Source: a bacterium (GTDB taxonomy: Bacteria; SZUA-79; Acidulodesulfobacterales; Acidulodesulfobacteraceae). Taken from it: a stretch of DNA of 41,812 nt. Positions within the stretch are counted from its first letter, which is position 1. Each line of letters begins with the position of its first letter. The position numbers and the translations under genes were made by a program. Shown here piece after piece: positions 38,783 to 41,482 of the stretch. The notes below the pieces were generated by a model. That model saw only the letters and a list, made by a program, of their open reading frames with translations, did no database searches and had not been told where the DNA came from. Where the stretch lies: the NCBI GenBank assembly GCA_021818985.1, contig JAKASO010000012.1, positions 1 through 41,812 of the forward strand. Direction: 5' to 3'.

Positions 38783-38783
38783 T

Positions 38784-38848
38784 GTTATTTTATAATGTTA
38801 TTTTATAATGTTATTTTATAATGTTATTTTATAATGTTATTTTATAAA
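38784..38848. repeat. 13-bp tandem repeat, five copies, in the xerC leader
   Basis: GTTATTTTATAAT occurs four times exactly (38784-38835) and a fifth time with the final base changed (38836-38848). On the coding strand each unit ends in AAAATAAC and the array stops one base before the ATG. It fills most of the predicted 5' untranslated region. Confidence 0.95.
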
Positions 38849-38983: not shown

Positions 38984-39835
38984 TTAAAACGCCATTTGGT
39001 AAGTTAGAACAAAGGCGCCAAATATTATGCAGTAAAAAGCAAATGGAAAAAGGGCATTTATTTCATATTTATGAAAATATTTCATTAAAAACCAGATGCT
39101 AAAATAAGCAGCAACGCCTGCAATAATGCCGCTCATTAACGATAAGGCATCAAAGGTTAAAAGATGCAGCTTGATCATTTTTGGAACTTCTAGAAGTCCT
39201 GCGGCAAAAATTATCGGCGTAGCGAGGAGAAATGAGAATTTAGCGGCATATTCGTGTTTAAATCCAAGATATAGCGCGGCAACCATCGTTATTGCAGAAC
39301 GCGATATGCCGGGAATAAGCGCAAATGACTGAAATACTCCTATTATCAGAGCTGCGGCTACCGTCATATCGGCTATTTTTGCAATACCCTGTTTTCTCCT
39401 TTTCTTTTCCCCCAGATACAGAATTATGCCGTTTACTATCAAAAATACCGCCGCAATATCAGTAAAACCAAAAAGCTTTTTAAGTTTATGGACGAATATG
39501 AGACCTATAAGGCCAGCGGGAATAGTCGCCAATGCCAAGAGATAAAGTGTTTTTGAATCTTCGTTGATATTAAGATTTCTATTTTTTATTCCGGTAAAAA
39601 AACCTTTAAATAAAAATATCCAATCCTTATAAAAATATAATAGAAGGGCCAGGGCTGTCCCAAGGTGCAAAACTACCAAAAATGGAAGGAAGCCTTCGGA
39701 CTGCCTGTTTATATGCCAGCCAAAAAGCTCAGGAAGTATTACTCCGTGAGCTAAGCTTGAAACCGGGGCAAGTTCGGTAATGCCCTGAATTATTGCAAGC
39801 ACGATACCTTGAAAAAATGAAAGATGTATCACCAT
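38984..39835 (-). CDS. uppP: Undecaprenyl-diphosphatase, UppP/BacA family
   Basis: Inner-membrane enzyme that dephosphorylates undecaprenyl diphosphate, recycling the carrier for peptidoglycan and O-antigen. The 283 residues have about eight membrane helices and both family motifs: GITELAPVSSLAHGVILP (usual form TEFLPISSTGH) and PGISRSAITM (usual form PGxSRSGxT). The SSLxH and ILP variants mark a divergent subfamily; the Ala for Gly after SRS is unusual. AGGAGG ends only 2 nt before the ATG, so the GTG at codon 2 (5-nt spacing) may be the real start. Confidence 0.85.
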   Translation of the reverse strand: MVIHLSFFQGIVLAIIQGITELAPVSSLAHGVILPELFGWHINRQSEGFLPFLVVLHLGTALALLLYFYKDWIFLFKGFFTGIKNRNLNINEDSKTLYLLALATIPAGLIGLIFVHKLKKLFGFTDIAAVFLIVNGIILYLGEKKRRKQGIAKIADMTVAAALIIGVFQSFALIPGISRSAITMVAALYLGFKHEYAAKFSFLLATPIIFAAGLLEVPKMIKLHLLTFDALSLMSGIIAGVAAYFSIWFLMKYFHKYEINALFPFAFYCIIFGAFVLTYQMAF

Positions 39836-39845
39836 ACCCTCCTTA

Positions 39846-39925
39846 CCGGCAAATAAACCGGTAAATAAAATCGCCGAGGTAAAAATACCATAGCCGGATC
39901 CGGTAAATAAACCGGTAAATAAAAT
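39846..39925. repeat. CCGGTAAATAAA repeats, two pairs, upstream of uppP
   Basis: The 12-bp unit occurs as back-to-back pairs at 39846-39869 (first unit has C for T) and 39900-39923, each pair followed by AT. The pairs are 54 bp apart, start to start. Their position in the uppP promoter region suggests operator sites; an origin-like or amplified repeat is also possible. Confidence 0.8.
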
Positions 39926-39949
39926 AGTTTAAATAATTTCAATCTCAAA

Positions 39950-40166: not shown

Positions 40167-40205
40167 AAAAAAAATCCCGCAACTAATCTCATAATTAATT
40201 GCGGG
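40167..40205 (-). terminator. Rho-independent terminator, minus strand
   Basis: On the minus strand CCCGCAA pairs with TTGCGGG (arms 40199-40205 and 40176-40182), extended inward by ATTA/TAAT, followed by A and then eight T (40167-40174). It is the clearest terminator in the window. It could end rmuC transcripts or the candidate small RNA. Confidence 0.85.
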
Positions 40206-40254
40206 GTATAGAGGTAAGTGGAAAATGTGGAGGTAAAGGCTTACCTGTTCTAAT
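40167..40254 (-). ncRNA. Candidate small RNA downstream of rmuC
   Basis: A possible -10 box TATAAT (minus strand, 40260-40265) with a weak TTGTAA 14 nt further up would start a transcript near 40254 that ends at the strong terminator, about 85-90 nt in all. The 5' part has AGGTAAG (40240-40246) that can pair with either TTACCT (40231-40236) or CTTACCT (40212-40218), two exclusive folds. Between them lies CCTCC (40229-40233), complementary to ribosome-binding sites. It may instead be the 3' untranslated region of rmuC. Confidence 0.4.
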
Positions 40255-40336
40255 CGCTTATTATAATATCATATCAATATTACAATTTTATAAAAGTTAT
40301 GTTAAATTTTTGTAACAAATATTTCTTGCAATTCTT

Positions 40337-41482
40337 TTACGAGTGCGCATCTTCTTTTTCGTTATTTTTATTTTCTTCGGATAATAATTCAGTACCGGAT
40401 AATAATTCCTGTTCCTCACTTATTTTATCTATCTTCTCCAATGAGTTATCTAATTTTTTTTGTCTTTTTGAAACCATACTATCAAAACTTTCCTTCGCCT
40501 TTCCTAAATAACCGCCAAGATTAGCCATGTCTTTTGTAAAGGAAACCCACTCTTTTTTAAATACGGTTAGTACGGTAAAAATCTCTCTTGATTTTTGTTC
40601 AACCGCAAAATTATTGATGGATTCCCTGATTATTGCTAAAATTCCAAGCAATATTATGGGAGAGCATATAAGAATTTTTTTCTGCATCGCATCTTTAAAA
40701 ATAGAGCTGTCGTTTTCATAGATAAACGCATATATCTGCTCGTTGGGTATTACCATCAGCGCATAATCGAGGGTATCTTTTTCAGGATTAATGTATTCCT
40801 TTGATGCAATTTCCTTAATTCTGCCTTTTACATCATACAGAAAATTTCTAATATAGTTTTTCTTATCGGTTTCCGATTCAGATCTTAAAAATTTTACGTA
40901 ATTTTCAAAAGGAAATTTTACATCTATATTTAATTTGCGCCCCTTTGGAAGATTGAATGTAAAGTCTGGCCTCAAGGCGGGTCCTGATAGCGCTCCTTCA
41001 ACCGTCTTTTGCTTTTCGTAATGAATACCTTCGATTAAACCGGAGGCTTTTAAAATATCGTCAATAAGAGATTCGCCGAATTCTCCCCTTTTTTTCGAAC
41101 TGGTAAGCGCATCATGAAGAGCGGAGGTCAAGCTCATCAGTTTTGATGTCTCGTTTGAAAGCTCTCCGTACTGTTTTTCCCTCCTTTTTTCAAGCTGGAA
41201 CACCAGTTCGGAAATATTCTCGAGATCTTGATTTAATCTATTTAGCCCTTGATCTATCAAGCTTTTTTTATTCTCAAGTTCTTTAAATTGAAGCTCTCTT
41301 TCCGATTCAAGCCTGCTTTTAGCGAGAACTAAAAACTGCTCCGAATTTCTTTGAAGGGCCTCCTGGGAAACCTCCGTCAGGCTCTTAAGCGTTCTAGACT
41401 TAAAAAAATAAAAAGCAGCGCCTATCAAAGCGCCTGCAAGTAAGCCAAAAATAAAATAGACAAGCAATAACAATTGATTCAT
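40337..41482 (-). CDS. rmuC: RmuC-family DNA recombination protein
   Basis: RmuC proteins limit recombination at inverted repeats; their core is related to PD-(D/E)XK nucleases. The 381 residues start with a membrane helix (about 5-27), then coiled coil (about 35-115), then the conserved core with RGEFGESLIDDIL, RPDFTFNLP and IDVKFPFENY (the D...DxK pattern), and VIPNEQIYAF. The last 35 residues are charged and variable. AAGGA lies about 11 nt before the ATG. It is a single gene; its upstream region is unusually rich in inverted repeats. Confidence 0.93.
   Translation of the reverse strand: MNQLLLLVYFIFGLLAGALIGAAFYFFKSRTLKSLTEVSQEALQRNSEQFLVLAKSRLESERELQFKELENKKSLIDQGLNRLNQDLENISELVFQLEKRREKQYGELSNETSKLMSLTSALHDALTSSKKRGEFGESLIDDILKASGLIEGIHYEKQKTVEGALSGPALRPDFTFNLPKGRKLNIDVKFPFENYVKFLRSESETDKKNYIRNFLYDVKGRIKEIASKEYINPEKDTLDYALMVIPNEQIYAFIYENDSSIFKDAMQKKILICSPIILLGILAIIRESINNFAVEQKSREIFTVLTVFKKEWVSFTKDMANLGGYLGKAKESFDSMVSKRQKKLDNSLEKIDKISEEQELLSGTELLSEENKNNEKEDAHS

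Follow-up and report, generated by a model that had tools for sequence, protein, structure and literature searches.

A predicted Pho-box-associated small RNA complementary to the start of a lipoprotein mRNA in the Acidulodesulfobacteraceae

Gram-positive bacteria are known to possess C-rich, Hfq-independent small RNAs (sRNAs) of the RsaE/RoxS and LhrC type, which block Shine-Dalgarno (SD) sequences. MicL of Escherichia coli is a sigma-E controlled, Hfq-bound sRNA. MicL, also named SlrA, represses lpp, as stated where PMC12137417 cites Guo et al. 2014, and it is processed from 308 to 80 nt (PMC12137417). Phosphate-responsive sRNAs have also been reported: EsrL of E. coli is phosphate-induced according to the statement in PMC10294691 that cites Jia et al. 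2023, with PhoB binding at esrL not seen in K-12 ChIP-seq (PMC10294691), and PsiR1 is a phosphate-responsive sRNA of Synechocystis (PMC5386190).

The locus described here lies on the minus strand of a 41,812-nucleotide stretch of DNA, hereafter the window, from a genome (G000) of the Acidulodesulfobacteraceae. It probably encodes a trans-acting, Hfq-independent sRNA of the Pho regulon that is antisense to, and represses, the mRNA of an abundant lipoprotein. MicL and Lpp would be the nearest functional parallel, as both cases would involve a stress-regulon sRNA that pairs with the mRNA start of a small, abundant outer-membrane lipoprotein and so blocks its translation. Unlike MicL, the present RNA has a Pho-box promoter, a predicted primary length of about 87 nt and bipartite pairing with the SD region and codons, and Hfq was not found in the 18 family genomes scanned. 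There is no sequence similarity between the two RNAs, which appear unrelated, and the target has no Pfam match to Lpp. With EsrL and PsiR1 the likeness is to small RNAs reported as phosphate-responsive, whereas no link in sequence, promoter architecture or target was found. The RsaE/RoxS and LhrC types share a single-stranded C-rich block that pairs with the SD and often form multicopy families; in contrast, the present RNA joins a gene-specific 5' seed to the C-rich block in one long colinear antisense duplex, and it differs in promoter type and phylum.

The segment 40254-40168 (minus strand) is very probably a real, free-standing sRNA gene. Its predicted product of about 87 nt is delimited by promoter position, terminator and homologues with the same start, with +1 placed near 40254 (to within 2-3 nt), and its 5' end reads (G)AUUAGAACAGGUAAGCCUUUACCUCC. 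The -10 region TATTATAAT (40260-40268) can be read as TATTAT (40268-40263) or TATAAT (40265-40260) and aligns with TTATTATAA or TTAAGAT of the homologues. Seed block 1, GAUUAGAAC (40247-40255), is a perfect complement of lipoprotein codons GUUCUAAUC in the same genome (G000:C41), amounting to 8 bp if transcription starts at 40254. Seed block 2, GUAAGC (40239-40244), is complementary to GCUUAC (codons KLT) of the same mRNA and equals a block within ACUGUAAGC of the relatives. The anti-SD block UUUACCUCC (40229-40237) can form 9 bp, one of them G-U, with the lipoprotein ribosome-binding site GGAGGUGAA; it contains ACCUCC, as does the 16S 3' end GAUCACCUCCUUU of the window genome. An intrinsic terminator (40167-40205) follows, consisting of a 13-bp stem (40205-40176) and eight U (40174-40167). 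No open reading frame of at least 30 aa was found on the minus strand within the sRNA stretch. The locus thus combines what is expected of a trans-encoded sRNA: its own promoter apart from the neighbouring genes, an intrinsic terminator, no conserved reading frame, and conserved, co-varying complementarity to a target at another locus.

The neighbours on the same strand are rmuC upstream (40337-41482; Pfam RmuC), a link to the sRNA that is absent in relatives, and uppP/bacA downstream (38984-39835; Pfam BacA). Two repeat features were also observed nearby. Repeated TTTACCGG / ATTTGCCGG units occupy 39846-39937 in the uppP leader and are absent upstream of the relatives' uppP, and five perfect copies of the 13-mer TGTTATTTTATAA lie directly upstream of xerC (38783-38847), a possible slippage-prone promoter region.

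The original prediction had listed a TATAAT box among its elements. By itself this hexamer means little, with 130 copies on both strands of the window; it counts as a promoter because a 43-bp array of Pho-box-like direct repeats, missed at that stage, stands at 40318-40276. The array consists of TTACA/TTAACA/TTTATA/GTAATA units with a period of about 11 nt, aligns with 10 homologous promoters and occupies the place of a -35 box, as an activator site. Scored with a leave-one-out matrix that excluded the window, it reaches 38.7 bits and is the best site in 634 kb of the window genome (the scanned stretches amount to 39% of the genome). The next-best sites score 22.2 and 20.4 bits, the latter preceding a gene for a PstS-like phosphate-binding protein. 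In relatives, matching boxes were detected upstream of genes for PstS-like binding proteins, Ppx/GppA, phosphoesterase and phosphate-transporter-like proteins, and sRNA copies adjoin ppk and an MFS transporter gene. Since pstS, ppx, phosphoesterase and transporter-type genes have this direct-repeat box in common, as expected of a Pho regulon, we read it as a Pho box and infer that the sRNA is under phosphate control.

Plain BLASTN with the window element against the relatives returned only short, chance-level pieces. Homology was first seen through synteny upstream of uppP, a gene that shares about 84% identity throughout most of the family, and then with a relative's sequence as query. In three genomes of another genus, uppP is preceded by an alignable unit of TTAACA-type repeats, a TATTATAA -10 box, a short RNA with CACCCTCC or TCCCCTT, and a terminator beginning AUACCCUGCGG (window: AUACCCCGCAA). 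Using the relative as query together with R2, a sequence model built from 11 units, homologues of the same layout were found in about 20 of 30 family genomes. At E<=1e-5, R2 matched 27 of the 30, some of them through the Pho box only; outside the family, 126 genomes gave no hit at this threshold. Thirteen units score 71-81 bits and the window unit 53; more divergent units fall at about 35-50 bits, a range also reached by boxes upstream of ordinary genes. Several genomes (G020, G022, G029, G006, G009, G008, G015 and G001) have at least two copies. The RNA of genera g5 and g6 runs from (A)AUACUGUAAGC through a variable spacer to a C-rich block (ACCUCC, CACCUCC, ACCCUCC or, in one case, UCCCC) and the terminator. 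The middle region varies among homologues, and the 5' seed is the most conserved part of the RNA. Genus g2 has several Pho-driven paralogues (L198-L203, L214-L217) with CU-rich blocks and 5' ends that do not fit the lipoprotein.

The element had been described as matching no recognised RNA family, and Rfam gave no match at the gathering threshold; the sub-threshold matches to rli38 (the best, E 0.48) and NsiR1 were treated as chance. A single-sequence covariance model, R1, recovered mostly other elements, several resembling RNase P RNA, and one true homologue (G018). Nothing was found in a plasmid search, and a search of open-access papers returned no description of this sRNA family. Synteny through rmuC failed as a way of finding homologues. 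RmuC of the window is nearer to proteins of other families (about 40% identity) than to those of its own (about 30%) and is therefore uninformative on the sRNA; for this gene itself the pattern suggests replacement or paralogy. AUACUGUAAGC was also observed in two further settings. One, in a nosZ-like/nosL intergenic region (L227, G000:C8, 2829-2839 minus; L146, G007:C8), is followed by CUUUCCCUUC and a terminator and has no Pho box; this may be a second RNA that shares the seed and is controlled differently. The other (L183 / L045, G003:C62:10685), which follows the rmuC-homologue locus in another genus, combines AUACUGUAAGC, CCUCC and a terminator and lacks a recognisable Pho box.

Besides the sRNAs, a search with AUACUGUAAGC unexpectedly detected one gene start, in antisense orientation, at about 18 loci. 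At these loci AUACUGUAAGC and CACCUCC are exactly antisense to the ribosome-binding site and codons of a lipoprotein gene, whose start GGAGGUGAUAAAUUUUGAAAAAGCUUACAGUAU comprises the ribosome-binding site, a UUG start and codons KLTV. The two conserved sRNA blocks are complementary to the lipoprotein mRNA in colinear order. The encoded protein of 70-85 aa (MKKLTVLVLGAFLVVSALAFSGCAKK...) has a lipobox, is rich in Lys, Ala and Pro and matched nothing in Pfam or NCBIfam; its promoter is a consensus sigma-70 promoter, TTGACA-17-TAAAAT (also given as TAGAAT). In the window genome the gene lies at G000:C41:82583-82699 (minus) and reads AAGGAGGUGAAUAAAUUUGAAAAAGCUUACGGUUCUAAUC. The window sRNA would pair with it as GAUUAGAAC:GUUCUAAUC, GUAAGC:GCUUAC and UUUACCUCC:GGAGGUGAA, at -33.0 kcal/mol (z -5.3; none of 500 shuffles as low). 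In cofolding the terminator persists; the net energy is -18.5 kcal/mol for the window pair, and the tested relatives range from about -17 to -30.

Scoring the 48-nt RNA by raw duplex energy against 634 kb is unspecific, as several purine-rich coding windows score equal or lower. Specificity was obtained after restriction to the 26-nt pairing part and start regions: among 621 gene starts the lipoprotein ranks first, at -25.3 against -21.3 for the second. In 1.18 Mb of other DNA from this genome, searched on both strands, the only GCUUAC..GUUCUAAU is that of the lipoprotein gene. In G018 (96% complete) the sRNA is present and no close copy of the lipoprotein was found, perhaps due to an assembly gap. 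Three g2 paralogues (G015b, G001a and G001b) pair with the lipoprotein no better than shuffles do, and thus must have other targets or have drifted.

The match between seed and codons follows lineage-specific changes. In the window genome the lipoprotein has different codons (ACG GUU CUA AUC), with a corresponding difference in the seed (GAUUAGAAC); this seed alone scores -15.2 with its own codons and -7.3 to -9.7 with those of other genera. The g5/g6 seed scores -15.7 with its own codons and still -11.5 with those of the window genome, showing that selection for an exact match is not absolute. For the g2 seeds (AACACUGU, which fit GTG instead of GTA) the energies are -12.4/-11.6 with g2 codons, against -4.4 to -6.2 with the codons of g1, g5 and g6. 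The match is a compensatory change between two unlinked loci, and seed changes of this kind, tracking synonymous changes in the target codons, are direct evolutionary evidence for pairing.

The elements from which the original prediction started are all present on the minus strand: TATAAT, an AGGUAAG with two possible partners, CCUCC (40233-40229), a strong terminator and no coding frame. AGGUAAG (40246-40240) can pair with UUACCU (40236-40231; 6 bp, 4-nt loop) or with CUUACCU (40218-40212; 7 bp, 21-nt loop), and the CCUCC does not lie between two free partners as had been described, since its CCU overlaps the first partner arm. The sRNA folds better than 200 of 200 dinucleotide shuffles (z -4.5 for 40265-40167, -5.7 for 40253-40168), mostly because of the terminator. 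The two exclusive folds of the original prediction could be read as the regulatory device, a structural switch that would depend on phosphate. Both folds do exist and, terminator included, are within 1 kcal/mol of each other (-24.2 and -23.2 kcal/mol), but the second arm is possible in the window sequence only and has no counterpart in any homologue. Such a switch is therefore unsupported, and we rejected it as extremely improbable. Conservation in relatives, which had been proposed as a check on the paired arms and CCUCC, covers CCUCC and, within the first arm, its 5' part (GUAAGC), while the second arm is not conserved. In the free window RNA a hairpin partly sequesters GGUAAG of the seed (unpaired probability of the seed 0.52), and the C-rich block is mostly unpaired (0.62-0.95).

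Other readings concern the transcript and its range of action. It is very unlikely that the region is only the rmuC 3' end, an intergenic terminator with chance hairpins and no separate transcript. The terminator does stand 132 nt past the rmuC stop on the same strand and would also halt rmuC read-through; yet promoter, seed and C-rich block are kept in genomes without rmuC upstream, the strongest Pho box in the 634 kb lies between rmuC and the RNA, and the 5' segment matches a conserved target. We give similarly little credence to a cis-acting leader or attenuator of uppP, in which a Pho-driven transcript would terminate or read through into the gene. Although 7 genomes from 3 genera have the unit directly upstream of uppP, other copies (L134-L137) precede unrelated genes or none, several are not near uppP, conserved antiterminator pairing is absent, uppP of g5/g6 is served by a TTGACA-type promoter of its own downstream of the terminator, and in the window 330 nt separate terminator and uppP. 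A general anti-SD RNA, whose CCUCC would lower the translation of many mRNAs, the lipoprotein's among them, when phosphate is scarce, is unlikely but deserves more weight. ACCUCC copies the 16S anti-SD, and divergent paralogues with seeds that have ceased to fit the lipoprotein still carry C-rich blocks. However, the strongly conserved 5' seed co-varies with one gene, and that gene alone stands out among the 621 starts. The idea of a base-pairing RNA that occludes a ribosome-binding site is thus upheld by the conserved promoter, seed, anti-SD block and terminator, by the conserved mRNA target and by the co-variation of seed and target.

For the preferred reading, a gene-specific antisense sRNA of the lipoprotein mRNA, the following course of events can be proposed. 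When phosphate is short, PhoB/PhoP would bind the repeats at 40318-40276, and RNA polymerase would make an RNA of about 87 nt ending at the terminator. Its first 26 nt or so would lie antisense along the lipoprotein mRNA start, with GAUUAGAAC and GUAAGC pairing with codons 3-8 and UUUACCUCC with the SD region. The duplex would loop out or cover the UUG start, block the ribosome and probably promote mRNA decay. Since the SD, start codon and codons 3-8 would all lie within it, the regulation is most naturally read as translational repression. Searches for Hfq (PF17209) gave no match in 18 family genomes (G000 and 17 others), while control genomes were positive. In a lineage apparently without Hfq, the long bipartite duplex and the universal SD block would probably replace a chaperone.

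To our knowledge no sRNA has been described for this lineage, and the present analysis offers a specific, testable sRNA-target pair in a group apparently lacking Hfq. Through this pair, phosphate starvation may be coupled to an abundant lipoprotein of the envelope, as envelope stress is coupled to Lpp by MicL in E. coli. More tentatively, and with somewhat less than an even chance in our judgment, the locus could belong to a multi-copy, fast-diversifying sRNA family that runs part of the phosphate response without detectable Hfq, each RNA combining a Pho promoter and an exchangeable gene-specific 5' key with a fixed anti-SD lock. Paralogues with new keys would gain new targets, and keys and target codons would co-evolve species by species. 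The sRNA family could help to study how trans antisense RNAs that work without a chaperone acquire new targets.
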